Assembly (NCBI GenBank): GCA_903918195.1
Contig: CAIXDS010000258.1
Location: 62,001-126,000 of the forward strand
Direction: 5' to 3'
DNA length: 64,000 bases
Origin: an uncultured Acetobacteraceae bacterium
GTDB lineage: Bacteria; Pseudomonadota; Alphaproteobacteria; Acetobacterales; Acetobacteraceae
This document shows, piece after piece, positions 180 to 11,359 of the stretch. Made by a program: the position numbers and the translations under genes. The notes below the pieces were generated by a model. The model searched no databases. It saw nothing but the letters and a program-made list of their open reading frames with translations, and had not been told where the DNA came from. The number at the start of each line of letters is the position of its first letter. The first letter of the stretch is position 1.

Positions 180-836
180 TCACACCAGGTGCCGCTGGAA
201 CTTGACGATCGCCTGCGCCCGGCTGACCACGCCGAGCTTGCGCAGGATGGCGGTGACATGCGCCTTCACGGTCATTTCGCTGATCGAAAGGTCATAGGCG
301 ATCCGTTTGTTCGACTTGCCCTCGGCCACCAGATTGAGCACCTCGACCTGACGCGGCGTCAGCGGGCCGCTGAACGGGTCGTCGGCGATGCCGCGGTCGG
401 CTGGCCGCTCGCGCGCCGGGTCCGGCTCGCCGAGCAGTTCGCGGGGCAGGTAGATGCCGCCGGCGAACACCACCTGCAGGGCGGTGGCGATCAGGTCCTT
501 GGGTGACGATTTTGGAATGAACCCGGCGGCGCCGCAGGCGAGCGCCTGGCGCACCGTCTCGGCATCGTTCAGCGACGAGATGACCACCACCGGCGTCTGC
601 GGTACCCGGCCGCGCAGTGTCATCAGGTGCGACAGGCCGTGCGCGCCGGGCATGAACAGGTCGAGCAGGATCAGGTCGATGTCCTCGTGCGCCTCGGCCA
701 GGGCGAGCAGCTCGTCCACCCGGGTTGCCTCAAGACAGATCAGTTCCCAGCCGTCCACGCCGAAAAGCCCTTCCACCACGTCGCGAATGGCTTCGCGGAA
801 CAATGGATGATCATCGGCGATCAACACCTTGGGCAT
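180..836 (-). CDS. NarL/LuxR-family response regulator (AgmR/ExaE-like)
   Basis: A 218-residue two-component response regulator. The receiver domain (about 1-125) begins MPKVLIADDHPLFREA, carries the acidic pair D8/D9, the likely phosphorylated D59 in LLDLFMPG, and a conserved lysine in FIPKSSP. A GerE/LuxR-type helix-turn-helix follows near the C-terminus (LTPRQVEVLNLVAEGKSN, then SISEMTVKAHV). The frame can begin nine codons earlier at 863, but the family N-terminus fits the ATG at 836; neither start has a strong ribosome site. It is divergent from the PQQ alcohol dehydrogenase operon. Response regulators of this type (AgmR/ErbR, ExaE) are known to switch on PQQ ethanol oxidation in Pseudomonas, so control of the neighbouring operon is a reasonable inference. 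No histidine kinase gene is adjacent. Confidence 0.9.
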   Translation of the reverse strand: MPKVLIADDHPLFREAIRDVVEGLFGVDGWELICLEATRVDELLALAEAHEDIDLILLDLFMPGAHGLSHLMTLRGRVPQTPVVVISSLNDAETVRQALACGAAGFIPKSSPKDLIATALQVVFAGGIYLPRELLGEPDPARERPADRGIADDPFSGPLTPRQVEVLNLVAEGKSNKRIAYDLSISEMTVKAHVTAILRKLGVVSRAQAIVKFQRHLV

Positions 837-1068
837 GGACGGTTTTTCTCCAGTCTGTTGCATTCTATTACAACAGGCACCGTCATTCTAGCCGGCAGGC
901 GGGAAAATGGGCATGCGCACAACGTCGCATCGTGATAAGGCCTCTCTACGACCAAATGGTGATGGCGGGGAGGAGCTTTGAGCAATTATTAATCGAGCCT
1001 GGCGGCCCGGGGGAAATCCGGTGCCGATCGTCAACGAAAAAGCGCAGTCGCCTTGGAGGTCCAAGAAA

Positions 1069-2781
1069 ATGAAATCAACAGCCGCTGCCCTTTTGGGCGG
1101 TGTGGCACTCGGTATAGGGCTGATCGGAAGCCCCGGTGCCGCCATTGCCAATGACGGGGTGATCCAGGCTGCCGCCGACCCGAATGCCTGGGCGGTCAAT
1201 GGCCGCGGCTACGACAACACCCGTTTCAGCCCGCTCACCCAGATTACCACCGGGAATGTCGGCAAGCTCCGGCTCGCCTATTCCTTCCAGCTCGGCTCGC
1301 TGCGCTCCAATGAATCCACGCCGCTGGTGATCGGCGACACGCTGTATGTCTCCACCTCGTGGGGGCCGAAATACGTCTATGCGCTGGATGCTGCTACCGG
1401 CGCGCAGAAGTGGAAATACGAGCCCGAAATTCCTGACGACGTGCTCCAGTTCGCCTGCTGCGACGTGAACAACCGCGGCGTCACCTACGCCGACGGCAAG
1501 ATTTTCGTTGGCCGGCTCGACGGTTTCCTGGCGGCGTTGGACGCCAAGACCGGCAAGGAACTGTGGTCGACCCAGGTGGTTGACTACAAGCAGGGCTCGG
1601 TGATCACCTCGCCGCCGCTGGTGGTGAAGAACCTGGTGATTACCGGCTTCGGCGGCGGCGAATACGGCGCCCGCGGCAGCCTGCAGGCGTATGATATCAC
1701 TACCGGCAAGCAGGTCTGGAAGACCTGGACCGTGCCGGGCCCGGGTGAGCCCGGCAACGAGACCTGGAAGGGCGATTCCTGGCAGCACGGCGGCGGCGCC
1801 CCCTGGCTTGTCGGCTCCTACGACCCGCACACCAACACGGTGTTCTGGGGCACCAGCAACCCGGGTCCGTGGAACACCGCGGTGCGCAGCTCCGGCAACT
1901 CCGATTACGGCAAGCTCACCAACCTCTACACGGCGAGCACGCTGGCGCTCGATGCCGATACCGGTCACATCAAGTGGCACCTGCAGACCACCCCGGAAGA
2001 TGCCTGGGACTATGACGGGGTGAACGAACTGGTGCTGGCCGATCTCACCATTGGCGGGGCCAAGGTGCCGGCCATGCTGAAGGCCGACCGCAACGGGTTT
2101 TTCTATGTGGCCAACCGCGAGACCGGCAAGCTGATCTCGGCCGAGCCGTACGTGCCGCAGAACTGGGCGAAGAGCATCGACATCGCCACCACCCGGCCGG
2201 TCGAAATCCCGGATATGCGCCCGCGCCTGGACCACAAGGTCAGCAATGTCTGCCCCAATTTGATCGGTGGCAAGAACTGGCAGCCGATGTCGTTCAATCC
2301 CAACACGGGCTTCGTGTATATCCCCAGCAACAACGTCTGCATGGACTGGGCGGTCAGCGAGGTTAATTACCACCGCGGCGTGTTCTATCTCGGCGCCGAG
2401 TTCCCGGTGCGGGAAGGGCCGGGCGGCTATCTCGGCGAGATCATGGCCTGGGACCCGGTGGCGCAGAAGAAGGTGTGGGGTGTAAAGGAAGACCTGCCGT
2501 TCAACGGCGGCACGCTGAGCACCGCGGGCGGGCTGGTCTTCTACGGCAACCTGCATGGGTTCTTTAAGGCGCTGGACGCCAAGTCCGGTGCCGAATTGTG
2601 GAAACTGCAGCTCGGCAGCGGCATCGGCGCGGCGCCGATTTCCTACGCGGTGGGCGGCAAGCAATACATCGCCGTGGTGGTCGGCCGCACCGCTTCCATC
2701 CCGGCCTTCCTCGGCGAGGTCGGCACCCGCATGGTTGCGGCCTCGCCAGAAGGCGGGGCGTTGTTTGTCTTCACGCAATAA
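1069..2781 (+). CDS. PQQ-dependent alcohol dehydrogenase, probable lanthanide-dependent type
   Basis: A 570-residue periplasmic quinoprotein of the methanol/ethanol dehydrogenase family that oxidises alcohols to aldehydes. The ATG at 1069 is preceded by GGAGGT at 1055-1060 and opens a signal peptide (MKSTAAALLGG...GAAIA); an upstream GTG at 1021 is less likely. The sequence shows the adjacent cysteine pair C130-C131 (FACCDVNNRG) that forms the family's vicinal disulfide, and likely metal ligands E198 (GGGEYGARG), N264 (GTSNPGPWN) and the catalytic D314 in WDYDG. D316, two residues after the catalytic Asp, is the extra aspartate known from XoxF, ExaF and PedH enzymes, which use lanthanides instead of calcium. 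There is no CxxCH haem motif, so electrons must go to a separate cytochrome, most likely the domain encoded by the next gene 23 bases downstream. Confidence 0.93.
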   Translation: MKSTAAALLGGVALGIGLIGSPGAAIANDGVIQAAADPNAWAVNGRGYDNTRFSPLTQITTGNVGKLRLAYSFQLGSLRSNESTPLVIGDTLYVSTSWGPKYVYALDAATGAQKWKYEPEIPDDVLQFACCDVNNRGVTYADGKIFVGRLDGFLAALDAKTGKELWSTQVVDYKQGSVITSPPLVVKNLVITGFGGGEYGARGSLQAYDITTGKQVWKTWTVPGPGEPGNETWKGDSWQHGGGAPWLVGSYDPHTNTVFWGTSNPGPWNTAVRSSGNSDYGKLTNLYTASTLALDADTGHIKWHLQTTPEDAWDYDGVNELVLADLTIGGAKVPAMLKADRNGFFYVANRETGKLISAEPYVPQNWAKSIDIATTRPVEIPDMRPRLDHKVSNVCPNLIGGKNWQPMSFNPNTGFVYIPSNNVCMDWAVSEVNYHRGVFYLGAEFPVREGPGGYLGEIMAWDPVAQKKVWGVKEDLPFNGGTLSTAGGLVFYGNLHGFFKALDAKSGAELWKLQLGSGIGAAPISYAVGGKQYIAVVVGRTASIPAFLGEVGTRMVAASPEGGALFVFTQ

Positions 2782-2804
2782 CTGACCAAGGGAGGTCCTT
2801 AAAG

Positions 2805-4121
2805 ATGCAACGCGATCGAAACGCTGGCGTAACGCCGACGCAGGCTGGCACGCCTGCCCACCGACGACGTCCAACGGTGCGGGCGCGTTGCCGATCCGCA
2901 CTGCTCGCGGCGGTTCCGTTCCTGGCCGCCATGGGCCTGGCCACCGCTCTGCCGGGCGCTCCGGCAGCGGCGGCCGCCATGGCCGTGGCAGCGCCGGCGC
3001 ACGCGCCGCTGCGGGTCTGTGCGGACCCGGACAACCTGCCCTTCAGCAGCGCCGAGGGCAGCGTGCGCGGGCTGTCGCTGGAGATCGCGCAACTGGTGGC
3101 CGACGCGCTCGGGCGGTCGCTGGAGCCGGTCTGGACCGTGACCATCTTCGGCAAGCGGTCGCTGCGCACGACCCTGCTGGCCGGGCAGTGCGACGCCTTC
3201 GTCGGGCTGCCCGAGACCACCGACTTCATGGGCAAGCGGCTGATCTACTCGCAGCCTCTGTTCACCATGGGCTATGCGCTGGTGCTGCCGGCGGACCGTG
3301 ATGCGCACGGTCTCGCCGACCTCGACGGCAAGCGCGTCGGCGTGCAGTTCGCCACCTCGCCGCAGAGCCTGCTGGCGACCCGCCCGGCGGTGACGGCGGT
3401 GACCTTCATGGACCCCGGGGCTGCGGTGGCCGCGCTGGCACGCGGCGAGCTTGACGCCGCGTTCGTGTGGGGGCCGGTGGCGGGCTATCTCGACCATACG
3501 GAACTGGCCGGCCGCTTCCATATCGTTCCGGTCGCCGGAGAGGATATGCAGTGGCCGGTCGGCATCGGCTTCGCCCGCGATCAGACCGCATTGCGTGACG
3601 CGGTCGATGGCGTGCTTGCCGGCCTGGGCGACGCGATCGGCCAGGTCGCGCAGAAATACGGCCTGCCGACCCAGGCGCCGGTCCGCTTCGCCGCCGCGGA
3701 TCGCGACTGGCCGGCCGCGCGGGAACCCGCCCGCGCGTGGGGGCCTGAGGGCGGGCGGATCGTGCTGGCCGCTGCCACCACGGAGGGGGAGCCGGCCAGC
3801 GCTTCCTCCAATCAGCTCGCCCTGGCGCGGCCGACGGGGCCGATCGATATGGGCGAGATGAGCGCCGAGGCGGTGCAGGGGCGCTCGATCTTCAACGGCA
3901 TCTGTTCGCACTGCCACGGACCGAACGCCGAGCAGGCGGTGTCGCGGATCAACCTGCGGCTGCTGCAGCGCCGCTACGGCGAGAAGATGGACGATGTCTT
4001 CATCTACACCGTCACGCATGGCCGCCCGTCGAAAGGCATGCCGAACTGGAGCGGCATCCTGACCGATGACGACTTCGTCAAGATCCGCGCTTTCCTGCAC
4101 ACCGTGCAGCAGAGCGAGTAA
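2805..4121 (+). CDS. Fused XoxJ/MxaJ-like periplasmic binding protein and c-type cytochrome
   Basis: A 438-residue secreted protein with two parts. After a long N-terminal export segment ending near APAHA (about residue 66), residues about 68-305 form a family 3 solute-binding domain (PLRVCADPDNLPFSS) like the MxaJ/XoxJ proteins found beside PQQ dehydrogenases. After an Ala-rich linker, residues about 345-438 form a small cytochrome c with haem motif C367-S-H-C370-H371 and likely axial M412 (KGMPNW). GGAGGT at 2791-2796 sets the ATG at 2805. In methanol-oxidation systems J and the cytochrome G are separate genes; here they are one chain, directly after the dehydrogenase. The likely role is to bind the dehydrogenase and accept its electrons. 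The role of the J domain is not settled in the family. Confidence 0.88.
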   Translation: MQRDRNAGVTPTQAGTPAHRRRPTVRARCRSALLAAVPFLAAMGLATALPGAPAAAAAMAVAAPAHAPLRVCADPDNLPFSSAEGSVRGLSLEIAQLVADALGRSLEPVWTVTIFGKRSLRTTLLAGQCDAFVGLPETTDFMGKRLIYSQPLFTMGYALVLPADRDAHGLADLDGKRVGVQFATSPQSLLATRPAVTAVTFMDPGAAVAALARGELDAAFVWGPVAGYLDHTELAGRFHIVPVAGEDMQWPVGIGFARDQTALRDAVDGVLAGLGDAIGQVAQKYGLPTQAPVRFAAADRDWPAAREPARAWGPEGGRIVLAAATTEGEPASASSNQLALARPTGPIDMGEMSAEAVQGRSIFNGICSHCHGPNAEQAVSRINLRLLQRRYGEKMDDVFIYTVTHGRPSKGMPNWSGILTDDDFVKIRAFLHTVQQSE

Positions 4122-4197: not shown

Positions 4198-5718
4198 ATG
4201 GTTGAAAAGACCCTCGCAGAGGTCGCGCAGAGCATCGCCCTGCGCTCGCATTACGACAACTGGATCGGTGGCAAATGGGTGCCGCCGGTGCAGGGGCGGA
4301 CCTTCGAGAACGTCTCGCCGATCAGCGGCAAAGTGGTCAGCGTGCATGCCCGCTCCACCGCCGAGGATATCGAGCTGGCGCTGGATGCCGCGCACGCGGC
4401 CAAGGATGCCTGGGCCAACACCAGCCCGGCCCAGCGCGCCCAGGTGCTGAACCGGATCGCTGACCTGGTCGAGTCCAAGCTTGACCTGCTCGCCACCGTC
4501 GAGACGATCGACAACGGCAAGCCGATCCGCGAAACCAAGGCCGCCGACCTGCCGCTGGCGGTGGACCATTTCCGCTACTTCGCCGGCTGCATCCGCGCCC
4601 AGGAAGGCAGCCTCGCCGAGATCGACGGCGACACCATCGCCTATCATTTCCACGAGCCGCTCGGCGTGGTCGGCCAGATCATTCCCTGGAACTTCCCGCT
4701 GCTGATGGCGATCTGGAAGCTTGCCCCGGCGCTGGCTGCGGGCAACTGCGTCGTGCTCAAACCGGCCGAGCAGACGCCGCTGGCGATCCTGGTGCTGGTC
4801 GAGGCGATCGGCGACCTGCTGCCGCCCGGCGTGCTCAACGTGGTCACCGGCTTCGGCCTGGAGGCGGGCAAGCCGCTGGCGCAGAGCAAGCGGATCGCCA
4901 AGATCGCCTTCACCGGCGAAACCACCACCGGCCGGCTGATTATGCAGTACGCGTCGGAGAACCTCATTCCGGTGACGCTGGAGCTGGGCGGCAAGTCGCC
5001 GAACATCTTCTTCGCCGACGTGCTGGCCGAGGACGACGACTTCCTCGACAAGGCGCTCGAGGGCTTCACCATGTTCGCGCTCAACCAGGGCGAGGTCTGC
5101 ACCTGCCCGTCGCGCGCGCTGGTGCATGAGAGCATCTACGACCGCTTCATCGAGCGCGCACTGCACCGGGTGGCGAAGGTGGTGCAGGGCAATCCGCTTG
5201 ATCCGGTCACCATGCTCGGCGCGCAGGCCAGTTCCGAGCAGCTCGAGAAGATTCTATCCTATATCGAAATCGGCAAGCAGGAGGGTGCCAAGGTGCTCGC
5301 CGGCGGCGGGCAGGCCCATCTGGGCGGCGAACTGGAAGGCGGCTACTACGTCCGCCCCACCGTGTTCGAGGGCCACAACCAGATGCGGATCTTCCAGGAG
5401 GAGATCTTCGGTCCGGTGCTGTCGGTCACGACCTTCCGCAATGACGAGGAAGCGCTAGCGATCGCCAATGACACCAAATACGGCCTGGGTGCCGGGATCT
5501 GGTCGCGCGACGGCAACCGCGCCTATCGATTCGGCCGCGCCATCCAGGCCGGCCGCGTCTGGACCAACTGCTACCATCTCTATCCGGCGCATGCGGCGTT
5601 CGGTGGCTACAAGCAGTCCGGGGTCGGCCGCGAGACCCACAAGATGATGCTCGATCACTACCAGCAGACCAAGAACCTGCTGGTCAGCTACAGCCCCAAG
5701 GCGCTGGGCTTCTTCTGA
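4198..5718 (+). CDS. NAD-dependent aldehyde dehydrogenase (ExaC/AldA-like)
   Basis: A 506-residue cytosolic aldehyde dehydrogenase, the usual length for the acetaldehyde dehydrogenase II group. Visible signatures are the cofactor-site segment [21 protein letters not shown], the general base E262 in LELGGKSPN, and the catalytic C301 in [11 protein letters not shown] (aligned with the middle Cys of the classic NQGQCCC motif). AAGGAGGAG sits just before the ATG at 4198. It is the third gene of the alcohol-oxidation operon and would convert the aldehyde made in the periplasm to the acid. The substrate cannot be told from sequence alone. Confidence 0.95.
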
Positions 5719-5829: not shown

Positions 5830-5923
5830 CCAGACGCATGGCTGCCTTATTTTCCAACTGGTGGCGCCACGACCCATCCGGACGACGTCCGGCTTGTACC
5901 GGTGTGGGCCAAGCGGGAACGGC

Positions 5924-7351
5924 ATGCAGGTACGACGGACCCTCACACGCAAGCTGCAGCGGTATGTCGTGGCGGCCACGCTCATTCTTGCCGCGCCGGT
6001 CGCTGCGCCGGCCGCGAGTCCGGAGGGAGATTCGAGTGTCTACCACAACACCCGCTACCTGGATGATTTCTCCTATCTCGCCGATCCGGCCCGGTCGAAT
6101 GACTTCTGGGATGGCGTGAAATACATCCGCCTGGGCGACGACCCGTATGGTCAGGGCATCCCCTGGCTCAGTCTTGGCGGCGAACTGCGCGAGCGCGACG
6201 AGACCTATACCTATCCCAATTTCGGCATCAAGGCGCCGGTGCGCGACAATTACGTCCTGCACCGGCTGTTGCTGCATGCCGATCTGCATGCCAGCGACTA
6301 CATCCGCGCCTTTCTGCAGCTCGGCGACTTCAACCGCCTGGATGCGCGCGCCGTGCCGTCGACCACCGATATCGACCAGCTCGACGTGATGCAGGGCTTC
6401 GTCGATGTCCACGGCCCCATGCCGCTCGGTGACGAACTCACGCTGCGCGGCGGCCGGCAGGAAGTGCTGCTCGGCTTCCAGCGCCTGGTTGCCGTGCGGG
6501 AAGGAGCGAACATCCGGCGCAGCTTCGACGGGCTGCGGATGTTCGACACATGGAACGACGTCACGGTCAACGTGTTCGCCCTTCGTCCTGTTCAGAACGA
6601 GATCGGCGCCTTTACCGATTACCCGAACCTGAGACAGTCACTCTGGGGCACCTATGCCACCGTGCCGGTCTGGGGTGCGCTGAACGCCGATCTCTATTGG
6701 CTCGGCTACGAGAACGACCACGCCACGTTCCGCGGCAAGACCGGTGAGGAGCGGCTCCAGTCCTTTGGCACCCGCCTGTTCGGCAAGGCGGGCGGATGGG
6801 ACTGGAACGAGGAGGCCGTGTTGCAGGGCGGCAGCTTTCGCGACCAGGACGTCGCCGCCTGGATGGTCGCCTCGATTGTCGGCTACACCTTCCGCGACCT
6901 TTCCTGGCAGCCGCGGATCGGCCTTGAAGGCAACGCCAGCAGCGGCGACAATCCCCGCAGCGGCACGATCGGCACCTATAACGGTCTTTACCCGCGCCTG
7001 CCCTATTTTGCCGAGACCTCCCTGCTGGTGCCCAGCAACGTCTACGACGTCCGCCCCGTCTTCAGCTTCAAGCCGCTGCCCGACGTGACGGTGGTGGCGG
7101 GGGTGGATTCGCTGTGGCGCACCTCCACGCGGGACGCGCTGTATGGCAACGGGATGGTCCCGTATCCCGGGACGGCGAAGGCGACCGGCAGACGGGTGGG
7201 CACCGAGGCGTCGCTCGACATCCGCTGGCGGTTCGACCAGCACCTGACGTTTGGCGCCATCTATGCGCGTTTCCTGGTCGGGCCGGCGCTGACGGAAGCG
7301 CTCGGCCACAACGTGAACTATGGCGTGCTGTTCGCAACGTACAAGTTCTGA
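5924..7351 (+). CDS. Alginate-export family outer-membrane porin
   Basis: A 475-residue protein with a signal peptide (MQVRRTLTRKLQRY... APAAS) followed by an all-beta sequence with alternating polar and aromatic residues. Segments such as LSLGGELRERDETY, YVLHRLLLHADLH and LTLRGGRQEVLLGF match the alginate_export (AlgE-like) beta-barrel family. The ATG at 5924 was chosen because the signal peptide begins there; the frame extends upstream to a GTG at 5861. It probably forms an outer-membrane channel. Members are often found in PQQ alcohol clusters, but the solute is unknown, and the terminator-like hairpin upstream suggests it has its own promoter. Confidence 0.8.
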   Translation: MQVRRTLTRKLQRYVVAATLILAAPVAAPAASPEGDSSVYHNTRYLDDFSYLADPARSNDFWDGVKYIRLGDDPYGQGIPWLSLGGELRERDETYTYPNFGIKAPVRDNYVLHRLLLHADLHASDYIRAFLQLGDFNRLDARAVPSTTDIDQLDVMQGFVDVHGPMPLGDELTLRGGRQEVLLGFQRLVAVREGANIRRSFDGLRMFDTWNDVTVNVFALRPVQNEIGAFTDYPNLRQSLWGTYATVPVWGALNADLYWLGYENDHATFRGKTGEERLQSFGTRLFGKAGGWDWNEEAVLQGGSFRDQDVAAWMVASIVGYTFRDLSWQPRIGLEGNASSGDNPRSGTIGTYNGLYPRLPYFAETSLLVPSNVYDVRPVFSFKPLPDVTVVAGVDSLWRTSTRDALYGNGMVPYPGTAKATGRRVGTEASLDIRWRFDQHLTFGAIYARFLVGPALTEALGHNVNYGVLFATYKF

Positions 7352-7416
7352 ACAGCAGAATTGCGGGTTCCCGGGGTGGGCTTGAACGGCCGGGGGCGGT
7401 GGGTCATGCTGGCGGC

Positions 7417-8223
7417 ATGCAACGTCCACAGCCGGCCCAGGCCGAAGTGACTTGTTCCCAGGTCCTGCCGGCGGCGCTGGAGGTGCAGGGCGTGAGCCAC
7501 GCCTATGGCGCGCGCATGGCGCTGGACAATGTGAGCCTGACCGTGCCGCAGGCGCGCTTCACCGTTCTGCTGGGGCTGAATGGCGCCGGCAAGACGACGC
7601 TGTTCTCGTTGGTCACGCGGCTGTTCCATACAAGGCAGGGCAGCATCCGCGTGCTCGGCCATCGGGTGGACCAGGCGCCGGGCGAGGCGCTGCGGTTGCT
7701 CGGCGTGGTGTTCCAGGCGCGCACGCTGGATCTGGATTTGTCAGTCCGCGAGAACCTGCTGTACCACGCCGCCCTGCACGGCATTGGCGGGCGGGCGGCA
7801 CGGCGGCAGGCCGATGCGGCCTTGCAGGAGGTGGAACTGGCTGGGCGCGCGCGCGATCCGGCCCGGCGTCTGTCGGGCGGGCAGATGCGGCGGGTGGAGA
7901 TTGCCCGCGCGCTGATGCACCGGCCGCGCCTGCTGGTGCTCGACGAGCCGACGGTCGGTCTTGATGTCGCTGCGAGGGCGGCGATTCTGCGCCACGTGCG
8001 CGGGCTGGTGCGCGAGCGCGGTGTGGCGGTGCTGTGGGCGACGCATCTGCTGGACGAGATCGAAGCGGATGATTTGATCGTGGTGCTGCACAAGGGGCGC
8101 GTGCTGGCGGCGGGAGAAATCGGCCATGTGGTGGCGGAGAGCGGTGCTGCCGACATTCATGACGCCTTCAGCCGATTGACGGGGGAAGCACGGGTGACCG
8201 GGGAAGCGCAGGAGAAAACATGA
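7417..8223 (+). CDS. ABC transporter ATP-binding protein, PQQ-alcohol-system (PedB-like) type
   Basis: A 268-residue ABC ATPase with Walker A GLNGAGKTT, signature LSGGQMRRVEIARAL, Walker B LLVLDEPTVGLD and switch histidine in WATHLLDE. It resembles the ABC-2 type exporter ATPases found in PQQ-dependent alcohol gene clusters, such as PedB of Pseudomonas putida, whose transporter PedA1A2BC has been linked to growth at low lanthanide. The start is placed at the ATG at 7417; the frame is open upstream to 7114 but that part overlaps the porin gene. The gene overlaps the permease by four bases (ATGA), indicating translational coupling. Confidence 0.9.
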   Translation: MQRPQPAQAEVTCSQVLPAALEVQGVSHAYGARMALDNVSLTVPQARFTVLLGLNGAGKTTLFSLVTRLFHTRQGSIRVLGHRVDQAPGEALRLLGVVFQARTLDLDLSVRENLLYHAALHGIGGRAARRQADAALQEVELAGRARDPARRLSGGQMRRVEIARALMHRPRLLVLDEPTVGLDVAARAAILRHVRGLVRERGVAVLWATHLLDEIEADDLIVVLHKGRVLAAGEIGHVVAESGAADIHDAFSRLTGEARVTGEAQEKT

Positions 8224-9059
8224 GCGCCGGCGCTGAGGTTGAAACAGGATTTGGCGCCGGGCAGTACCTGATCTGCCTGCGCGGCATCGTCTGGCGGGAG
8301 GCGCTGCGCTTCGTGCACCAGCGCGAGCGTTTCGTCTCGGCACTGGTGCGCCCGCTGGTGTGGCTGTTCATCTTCGCCGCCGGGTTCCGTCAGATCCTCG
8401 GCGTTTCCATCATCCCGCCTTACGAGACCTACGTGCTTTACGAGGTCTACGTCACCCCCGGGCTGATCGCGATGATCCAGCTGTTCAACGGCATGCAGTC
8501 CTCGTTGTCGATGGTCTATGACCGCGAGATGGGCAACATGCGCATGCTGCTGGTGAGCCCGTTCCCGCGCTGGTTCCTGCTGGTCGGCAAGCTGCTGGCG
8601 AGCACCGCGGTGTCGGTGCTGCAGGTCTATGTGTTTCTCATCATCGCCTGGCTGTGGGGGGTGGAAGTGCCGCCGCTCGGCTGGCTCAGCGTGCTGCCGG
8701 CGCTGCTGCTGTGCGGGATGATGCTTGGTGCGCTCGGCATGCTGCTGTCCTCGGCGATCCGCCAGTTGGAGAATTTCGCCGGGGTGATGAATTTCGTGAT
8801 CTTTCCGATGTTCTTTGCATCCTCGGCGCTGTACCCGCTGTGGCTGGTCGAGCAGTCGAGCCCGGTGGTCTATGCCATCTGCCGGCTGAATCCGTTCACC
8901 TATGCCATCGAGCTGATCCGCTTTTCCCTCTACGCCGAGGTGAACCCGATGGCCCTGGCAGTGGTCGCGGGCGCGGCGGTGCTGTTCACCGCGGGCGCGG
9001 TCCTGGCCTACGATCCGGCGCGCGGCCTGATCGCCCGCCGCGGTGGAGGCGGCGCATGA
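8220..9059 (+). CDS. ABC-2 type permease, PQQ-alcohol-system (PedC-like) type
   Basis: A 279-residue inner-membrane protein with about six hydrophobic segments, for example LVRPLVWLFIFAAGF, VLQVYVFLIIAWLWG and NFAGVMNFVIFPMFF. The conserved ABC-2 region (YDREMGNMRMLLVSPFPRW) identifies the permease partner of the ATPase encoded just upstream. The start ATG overlaps the ATPase stop and its own stop overlaps the next start, so the three genes 7417-11359 form one coupled operon. The direction and cargo of transport are not shown by sequence; metal-related or cofactor-related transport is inferred from the context. Confidence 0.9.
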   Translation: MSAGAEVETGFGAGQYLICLRGIVWREALRFVHQRERFVSALVRPLVWLFIFAAGFRQILGVSIIPPYETYVLYEVYVTPGLIAMIQLFNGMQSSLSMVYDREMGNMRMLLVSPFPRWFLLVGKLLASTAVSVLQVYVFLIIAWLWGVEVPPLGWLSVLPALLLCGMMLGALGMLLSSAIRQLENFAGVMNFVIFPMFFASSALYPLWLVEQSSPVVYAICRLNPFTYAIELIRFSLYAEVNPMALAVVAGAAVLFTAGAVLAYDPARGLIARRGGGGA

Positions 9060-11359
9060 GACGGTGCCTGCGGATCGGTTTTTGCGGGGTGCTTTTGCCG
9101 GGGGTGGCGCTGGCGCAAACCGCATCGGTCACGACGCTGCCGGAGGTCAATGTCATCGCAGCGTCGCCGTTGCTGGGCACCGGCATCGATCGCAACCTGG
9201 TACCGGCGCAGACGCAGGTGTTCACCACGCCGGACATTGCCCGCGAGGGCAGCCCCAACGCCTTGCAGACGCTCAATGACCAGGCGGCCGGGGTGACGCT
9301 CGATTCCGCCTCGGGCAATCCCAACCAGCCCACCCTGATGTATCATGGGTTCGCGGCATCGCCGTTGCAGGGAACGCCGCAAGGCGTTGCCGTCTATGTC
9401 AACGGCGTGCGTTTCAACCAACCGTTCGGCGATACGGTCAACTGGGACCTGATTCCGGACATCGCCATCGACCGGATGAATCTGGAGGGATCGAACCCGG
9501 TCTACGGGTTGAACGCGTTGGGCGGATCGCTGAATATCCAGTTGAAGAACGGCTTCACCTACCAGGGCGCCGAGGCGGTGGTTTCCGGCGGCTCGTTCGG
9601 ACAGGTGCAGGGGCAGTTCCAGGTCGGCCGACAGAGCGGCAACGAATCGGCCTATATCGGCGGCAATATCCTGCACCAGGATGGCTGGCGCGACCTGCAA
9701 TCTTCCGACATCTACAATGTCTTCGGTGATATCGGCTGGCGCGGCGACAAGGCGGAAATCCATCTCGGCATCACCGCTGCCGACACCGGGCTGAACGGCC
9801 CCGGAACGTCGCCGGTGGAATTGCTGGACGTCGCCCCGCGCGCGCTGTTCACCGCGCCGAACAACATTGCCAACACGTACCTGCAACTCAGCCTGTCCGG
9901 CACATACGATGTCAGCGACACGACGTCGCTGCAGGCGATTGCCTATTACGACAATTTCCTCCAGCGCGTCACCAACGGCAATGCGCCGAACGACACGCCG
10001 TGCAATGACGGATCGGGCCTGCTGTGCCAGGCAGGGGGCGGCGTCAGCACCACCCGCGGCGGCGGACCGATCCCGGACTTTCTGAACGGCGGGCCATATT
10101 CCCAGCTCGATAGCCAGACGACGAACACCAACGGCTATGGCGCGTCCGTGCAGGTGACCAACACCGATGATGTGTTCGGATGGAAAAACCAGCTGGTCGG
10201 CGGGATCAGCTTCGACGGGGCGCAAACCGAGTTCGATGGCGTTTCGTTCATTGGCGGCCTGACGCCGGTCACGCGGGTCTTTGTCGGACCCGGCATCGTG
10301 ATCGACGAGCCGGGCTCGAACTCTCCGGTGCGGGTCGGCATCAGCGACGCCTATTGGGGCGCCTATGCCACCGACACGCTGGAGCTGACATCGAAGCTGG
10401 CGGTGACGCTGGCCGGGCGCTTCAACGCCGCCCAGATCGACCTGAATGACCAGTCCGGCGGCGACCTGACCGGCAATCATGCCTACGATCGCTTCAACCC
10501 GGCTGTCGGCGCCACCTACAAGGTCACGTCATGGCTGATCGCCTATGCCGGGTATTCGGAGGCCAACCGGGCGCCGACGCCGGCGGAACTGTCCTGCGCC
10601 AGCCCGACGCAATCGTGCAGTCTCGCCAACTTCTTTGTCGGCGACCCGAACCTGAAGCAGGTGATCGCGCATACGGTCGAGGCCGGACTCCGTGGCAATG
10701 TCGTGCCCTTCGAGGGCGGCCACCTGACGTACAATCTCGGGCTGTACCACACCGACCTCGACGACGACATCGTCTTCGTCAACGGCCCGGTGCTCGGCCG
10801 CGCCTTCTTCACCAATGTCGGACAGACCCGCCGGCAGGGCATCGATGCCGGTCTGCAGCTCAAGACCGGGCGGCTGCTGGCCTATATCAACTACAGCTAC
10901 ACCGATGCGACGTTCCAGACCACATTCACCGAATCCGCCGGCAGCAATCCGCAGGCCGATGCCAACGGCAATATCACCGTCCATCCGGGCGACCGACTGC
11001 CAGGCATTCCGGCCAACCTCGTCAAGCTCGGCGTGCAGTACAAGATCACCGATGCCTGGACCGTCGGCGGCACCGCCGTCGCGCAGAGCGGCACCTATCT
11101 GTTCGGCGACGAGGCCAATCTGAACCCGAAGCTGCCCGCCTACGCCGTGCTCAATCTGAACACGTCCTATCAGGTGACTCCGCACATCCAGATCTTTGGG
11201 CTTTTGCAGAACGTGACCGATCAAAAATATTATACCTACGGTACGTTTTCGCCGACGTCGTCGGTGTTTCTGGCGCAGGCGCCGAACGCCAGCAATCCGC
11301 GGAGTTATAGTCCTGCCGCGCCGATTGGCGGCTTTTTGGGGCTCAGGGTGACACTGTAA
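9056..11359 (+). CDS. TonB-dependent outer-membrane receptor
   Basis: A 767-residue receptor with signal peptide (MRRCLRIGFCGVLLPG...ALA), a TonB-box/plug region (VTTLPEVNVIAA, then VAVYVNGVRFNQPFGDTVNW and NPVYGLNALGGSLNIQ) and a 22-strand-type barrel ending in GFLGLRVTL with the terminal hydrophobic pattern typical of outer-membrane barrels. GGAGG at 9045-9049 supports the ATG at 9056, which overlaps the permease stop. Receptors of this class import scarce metal chelates or cofactors. Its coupling to a PedBC-type transporter and closeness to a probable lanthanide enzyme suggests uptake of a lanthanide chelate or PQQ, but the ligand is inferred only. It ends with YTYGTFSPTSS-type loops and no plug defect is seen. 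Confidence 0.93.
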   Translation: MRRCLRIGFCGVLLPGVALAQTASVTTLPEVNVIAASPLLGTGIDRNLVPAQTQVFTTPDIAREGSPNALQTLNDQAAGVTLDSASGNPNQPTLMYHGFAASPLQGTPQGVAVYVNGVRFNQPFGDTVNWDLIPDIAIDRMNLEGSNPVYGLNALGGSLNIQLKNGFTYQGAEAVVSGGSFGQVQGQFQVGRQSGNESAYIGGNILHQDGWRDLQSSDIYNVFGDIGWRGDKAEIHLGITAADTGLNGPGTSPVELLDVAPRALFTAPNNIANTYLQLSLSGTYDVSDTTSLQAIAYYDNFLQRVTNGNAPNDTPCNDGSGLLCQAGGGVSTTRGGGPIPDFLNGGPYSQLDSQTTNTNGYGASVQVTNTDDVFGWKNQLVGGISFDGAQTEFDGVSFIGGLTPVTRVFVGPGIVIDEPGSNSPVRVGISDAYWGAYATDTLELTSKLAVTLAGRFNAAQIDLNDQSGGDLTGNHAYDRFNPAVGATYKVTSWLIAYAGYSEANRAPTPAELSCASPTQSCSLANFFVGDPNLKQVIAHTVEAGLRGNVVPFEGGHLTYNLGLYHTDLDDDIVFVNGPVLGRAFFTNVGQTRRQGIDAGLQLKTGRLLAYINYSYTDATFQTTFTESAGSNPQADANGNITVHPGDRLPGIPANLVKLGVQYKITDAWTVGGTAVAQSGTYLFGDEANLNPKLPAYAVLNLNTSYQVTPHIQIFGLLQNVTDQKYYTYGTFSPTSSVFLAQAPNASNPRSYSPAAPIGGFLGLRVTL

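Follow-up and report, generated by a model that had tools for sequence, protein, structure and literature searches.

Directly behind a PQQ-dependent alcohol dehydrogenase gene, the window, i.e., the whole stretch of 64,000 nucleotides analysed here, encodes a J-type periplasmic binding domain and a mono-heme cytochrome c in one chain of 438 residues. This fusion is no artefact: it is inherited across many bacteria and conserved in 22 genomes including the source genome, a member of the Acetobacteraceae. In the best explanation, to which we assign a probability of about 0.7, the fusion acts as the single periplasmic redox partner of the neighbouring lanthanide-type PQQ alcohol dehydrogenase, with the J domain holding and maturing the enzyme and the tethered heme taking its electrons.

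Architecture of the fusion gene

The fusion gene occupies positions 2805..4121 of the forward strand, starts with ATG 23 bases behind the dehydrogenase stop codon and is preceded by a probable ribosome binding site, GGGAGG, at 2790..2795 (+). The first-pass annotation had described it as one chain in which a J-type binding domain and a CxxCH cytochrome are naturally fused, encoded immediately behind the PQQ dehydrogenase. This description stands, as both Pfam domains lie in a single frame of 438 codons: SBP_bac_3 covers residues 69-274 (E 2e-8), and Cytochrome_CBB3 covers residues 355-431 (E 5e-8). Re-reading of the linker (3690-3860) as a frameshift check revealed no stop codon.

All parts of the chain are given on the forward strand. 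The N-terminal export region (2805..2999) is recognized in the sequence by a hydrophobic stretch at about residues 31-65, has low confidence in the AlphaFold model, and represents the sole signal in the chain. It is followed by the J domain, residues 66-290 (3000..3674), with an MxaJ/XoxJ-like periplasmic binding fold, by a flexible linker, residues 291-352 (3675..3860; 34% Ala+Pro), and by the mono-heme cytochrome c domain, residues 353-437 (3861..4115). Model confidence follows these boundaries, with a pLDDT mostly over 90 in the J domain, mostly under 50 in the linker, and in blocks of 72-96 in the cytochrome. Across relatives, the linker varies between 29 and 74 residues, with a high content of Ala, Pro, Ser, and Glu.

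The cytochrome domain shows the features of a class I mono-heme cytochrome c, a CxxCH motif and a conserved Met downstream of it, here as CxHCH and KGMPNW, both invariant. The heme attachment motif CSHCH comprises residues 367-371 (3903..3917, +), of which C367, H369, C370, and H371 are invariant in the alignment of fusions. Met412 (4038..4040, +) within KGMPNW is likewise invariant and, by comparison with class I cytochromes c, is likely the second axial heme ligand. Scores against the models of known partner cytochromes are low: 21 bits for the MoxG cytochrome cL model TIGR03872 (cut-off 148) and 31 bits for the c550 PedF model TIGR04494 (cut-off 122). Within approximately 8 kb of the fusion, no other CxxCH gene was found.

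Identity of the J domain

The best NCBIfam model for the J domain is TIGR03871, the quinoprotein-dehydrogenase-associated J family, with 115 bits and thus under the cut-off of 212; TIGR03870 is matched with 49 bits, under its cut-off of 258. The domain is complete, spanning positions 2-230 of the 232 positions of TIGR03871. By sequence, the nearest solved structure is XoxJ 6onp. The structural comparison, which covered the J domain, placed MxaJ 5sv6 first (Z 22.1, 215 residues, 2.1 Å) and XoxJ 6onp second (Z 21.8, 198 residues, 1.8 Å), with amino-acid-binding domains close behind, among them 4la9 (Z 21.1), within 1 of both. Hallmarks in common with 37 stand-alone J proteins are C72, D74, P75, P79, F80, G89, C129, D130, W222-G-P, and A226-G227. 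In the J tree, the fused J domains and one unfused J (locus L049, see below) are separate from all 37 stand-alone J proteins (support 93).

The label "XoxJ-type" used in the first-pass annotation is to be used with care. The XoxJ/MxaJ-like fold agrees with it, while the TIGR03871 score (115 bits, cut-off 212) and a partner dehydrogenase outside XoxF clades 1, 2, and 5 do not.

The partner dehydrogenase and its clade

The preceding gene (1069..2781, +) encodes a PQQ-dependent alcohol dehydrogenase of 570 residues, periplasmic and of the lanthanide type by motif. It scores 684 bits against TIGR03075 (cut-off 480), and its best match among solved structures is XoxF2 4mae. Its W-D-Y-D-G motif lies at 2005-2019, and alignment to 4mae assigns the catalytic Asp314 (2008-2010) and the lanthanide-type Asp316 (2014-2016; together 2008..2016, +). 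All 24 members of the fusion-linked clade share the D-x-D pattern (WDYDG or WDFDG), where calcium-dependent MxaF has Ala, and all 24 also carry a neighbouring Cys-Cys pair. From these motifs, the partner dehydrogenase probably uses a lanthanide.

In the tree, the dehydrogenases adjoining fusions group together as a single clade with a support of 99. It is separate from the references included, i.e., XoxF1, XoxF2, XoxF5, MxaF, PedH, and a quinohemoprotein. An assignment of the dehydrogenase to XoxF was rejected by this tree for clades 1, 2, and 5.

Three clade members occur without a fusion, one followed by a J gene only (L049) and two by a cytochrome gene only (L053 and L054). As a few members do without it, the fusion is not essential for this dehydrogenase clade. 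A clade restricted to the fused loci, which would leave out the three unfused members, is rejected at p 4.5e-7, and consequently the unfused members are nested inside. The simplest reading is a single gain of the fusion with later splits. Downstream of the lone J gene in L049, no remnant of a cytochrome was found.

Two of the unfused loci belong to the same draft genome (G094), which encodes two fusion-clade dehydrogenases, one followed by J alone (L049:3578-6370) and one by a cytochrome alone (L054:5362-7548); these loci are possibly a split fusion. The third, L053:5737-7874 in genome G065, consists of a fusion-clade dehydrogenase and a cytochrome alone.

Distribution of the fusion

Among 299 genomes of the Acetobacteraceae, 15 encode a complete single-frame fusion, the source genome among them. 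G137 harbours two copies, and in G114 the fusion is interrupted by the contig end, so that it is not counted among the 15 complete ones. Phylum- and class-wide samples revealed further fusions beyond the family in G408, G488, G356, G302, G633, G805, and G974. The total of 22 genomes is thus composed of the source genome, 14 of the same family, six genomes from other alphaproteobacterial families, and one genome outside the class. The same domain order beside PQQ dehydrogenases thus recurs in 21 other genomes, each time in one frame, and in all fused loci examined the fusion adjoins and follows the PQQ dehydrogenase.

The closest relative, in G076, is 77% identical over the fusion, with 83% in the J domain, 72% in the cytochrome, and 49% in the linker. 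At the protein level, the two linkers differ by 19 gap columns, and the frame is still open.

Genomic neighbourhood and a second system in the same genome

Downstream of the fusion, an NAD(P)-type aldehyde dehydrogenase (4198..5718, +; Pfam Aldedh, 529 bits) would catalyze the next pathway step; nine further loci also have such a gene next to the fusion. Divergent from the operon, a LuxR-type response regulator with Pfam domains Response_reg and GerE is encoded at 180..863 (-), and six other loci have one near the fusion. Further downstream of the operon (5861-11359), the window encodes an outer membrane channel of the alginate-export type, an ABC ATPase with an ABC-2 permease, and a TonB-dependent receptor, which could serve metal-chelate uptake. 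L036 and L038 also have the ABC ATPase/ABC-2 permease pair beside their fusions, and this pair is reminiscent of pedB/pedC.

On contig C135, the same genome encodes a canonical XoxF5 operon with cytochrome and J as separate genes (L092:5304-8700), and PqqC on the same contig. This XoxF5 scores 1008 bits to M. extorquens XoxF, its separate cytochrome is of the methanol type (TIGR03874, above cut-off), and its separate XoxJ reaches 294 bits with TIGR03871, above cut-off. Both forms thus occur in one organism, and the fused form goes with a second dehydrogenase, from a separate clade. Judged from these sequences, the organism appears to have two lanthanide-type systems.

Comparison with known J and cytochrome systems

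In the XoxF/XoxG/XoxJ and MxaF/MxaG/MxaJ systems, dehydrogenase, cytochrome, and J adjoin as in the present locus, and the J fold is the same. In contrast to the fusion, G and J are separate genes there, as in the XoxF5 operon of the source genome. In PedE/PedH-PedF-PedG of Pseudomonas and ExaF-type systems, a PQQ alcohol dehydrogenase likewise has two partners, the cytochrome c550 PedF and the J homologue PedG, and the PedF model gives the fused cytochrome a weak score. The genes of PedE/PedH-PedF-PedG are separate, however, and PedH falls outside the fusion-linked dehydrogenase clade.

The separation of J and cytochrome (G) in methanol-type systems, on which the first-pass annotation had built, does not always hold. 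Methylacidiphilum (Verrucomicrobia, volcanic methane eaters) has a published XoxG:J fusion, cytochrome cGJ, reported as the electron acceptor of XoxF. Its gene set xoxFJG:J contains a cytochrome fused to a truncated J and a further, separate J gene (PMC6688271), and our comparison follows this published description. Like the present fusion, XoxG:J is a single chain with a c-type cytochrome and a J domain, and its gene adjoins that of a lanthanide PQQ dehydrogenase. The systems differ in three respects: the published notation gives the order cytochrome then J, whereas J precedes the cytochrome here; the fused J of Methylacidiphilum is truncated and accompanied by a second J gene, whereas the present J is complete and the operon has no separate one; and the partner of XoxG:J is a XoxF methanol dehydrogenase, whereas the present partner belongs to a different clade. 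The authors of PMC6688271 already speculate that the cytochrome is bound to the dehydrogenase through the J part, which is close to the earlier idea, put forward for the present locus, of a J that presents the dehydrogenase to the electron acceptor.

In Burkholderia multivorans, a PQQ dehydrogenase gene precedes the gene of a single chain with a J-like domain and then a cytochrome (CAKCH), as in the window (WP_006409421, plasmid NZ_CP020399). The locus, L055:4758-5996 (NZ_CP020399.1) and also L096, is annotated only as a transporter substrate-binding protein. It differs from the present one in that J and cytochrome are very distant, the dehydrogenase is outside the fusion clade, and a gene for a high-potential iron-sulfur protein (HiPIP), possibly the next electron carrier, follows the fusion. 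A placement of the B. multivorans dehydrogenase inside the fusion clade was rejected (one clade, p 0.01), a result to be read with caution regarding long branches. The B. multivorans fusion is apparently an independent event, and a fusion of J and cytochrome seems to have arisen at least three times, in the present clade, in B. multivorans, and in the published Methylacidiphilum case.

An unfused counterpart of the order J then cytochrome is seen in Mesorhizobium sp. B1-1-8 (plasmid pB1-1-8, L056:1957-6278), where a PQQ dehydrogenase gene is followed by J, then by the gene of a small cytochrome c, and finally by an operon for a cytochrome oxidase; the J stop overlaps the cytochrome start.

A fusion of J and cytochrome as such, in the opposite order, is therefore already known from XoxG:J. 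The literature searched, with most subscription papers outside its scope, does not mention a fusion of J followed by cytochrome. Within this searchable literature, we likewise did not find a complete J in such a fusion, its spread over alphaproteobacterial families, or its tie to one dehydrogenase clade.

Proposed function and alternative explanations

Deletion of xoxJ or xoxG is equivalent to loss of XoxF, and J is needed for dehydrogenase activity (PMC7391723). MxaJ/XoxJ have been proposed to bind the partly folded apo-enzyme for insertion of PQQ and metal (PMC12997753, a review), and a complex of MxaF and MxaJ has been solved (9ism). On this background, the single-redox-partner reading can be spelled out as follows. 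The fusion chain would be exported once, and one heme would be attached at CSHCH, as the motif suggests. By homology, the J domain would bind the dehydrogenase and aid its uptake of PQQ and metal, as proposed for MxaJ/XoxJ, while the flexible tether of 30-75 residues would keep the cytochrome near. The cytochrome would then take the two electrons of reduced PQQ singly and pass them to the respiratory chain, similar to what others report for cGJ. The aldehyde product would be handed to the adjacent aldehyde dehydrogenase, and the presence of this gene in many loci fits a route from alcohol via aldehyde to acid.

By analogy with cGJ, docking of the fusion via J and electron uptake by the tethered heme is the most likely mode of action. 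A role of J in presenting the dehydrogenase to the electron acceptor is plausible. In favour of a single redox partner we count the one frame, the position of the fusion behind the dehydrogenase in all fused loci examined, the dehydrogenase clade, the J tree, the hallmarks, the structural matches to MxaJ/XoxJ, the MxaF/MxaJ complex, the lack of another CxxCH gene nearby, and the published results on cGJ and on xoxJ/xoxG. Against it we count the J domain score under the TIGR03871 cut-off and the few clade members without a fusion.

The strongest competitor, which we regard as unlikely though of some weight, takes J as a one-time maturation factor for insertion of PQQ and metal with no role in electron transfer, such that the only gain from the fusion is that both parts are exported together and in equal amounts. 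The proposed binding of the partly folded apo-enzyme (PMC12997753) and the existing MxaF/MxaJ structure are in line with it, and the linker is long and variable, so that precise geometry is not required. However, each enzyme requires a maturation factor a single time and a cytochrome at every turnover, yet the fusion has apparently arisen at least three times, which would suggest a benefit in the working complex.

Far less probable is a true ABC importer solute-binding protein to which the cytochrome became attached by accident. Pfam does assign SBP_bac_3 to the domain, whose fold is common to amino-acid-binding proteins. However, the domain has the J hallmarks and is linked to one dehydrogenase clade, and among the neighbourhood genes there is no importer permease, the only nearby ABC genes being the ABC-2 exporter-type ATPase and permease. 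An amino-acid importer as the main reading was ruled out by this gene neighbourhood and the J hallmarks.

A sequencing or assembly error joining two genes is close to negligible: the source assembly is a draft of 410 contigs, but the same single-frame fusion recurs in 21 other genomes, and this conservation refutes a frameshift or assembly artefact and excludes chance.

Beyond the single-redox-partner reading, we tentatively offer a further one, which we hold to be somewhat doubtful. J may be a lasting docking subunit on the working dehydrogenase that positions the cytochrome, and selection may have fused both apparently three times, as J then cytochrome in the alphaproteobacterial clade and in Burkholderia, and as cytochrome then J in Methylacidiphilum. 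The fusion clade would then mark a clade of lanthanide-type alcohol dehydrogenases, not matched here to any named type, in which two genes make up a self-contained module for electron transfer.

Significance

The function of the J protein has long been open, and natural J-cytochrome fusions with their matched dehydrogenase constitute a simple two-protein system. In such a system, effects of J on electron transfer and on maturation are separable, e.g., by a cut in the linker. That fusion has recurred in unrelated lineages is evidence that J acts where electrons exit the enzyme.
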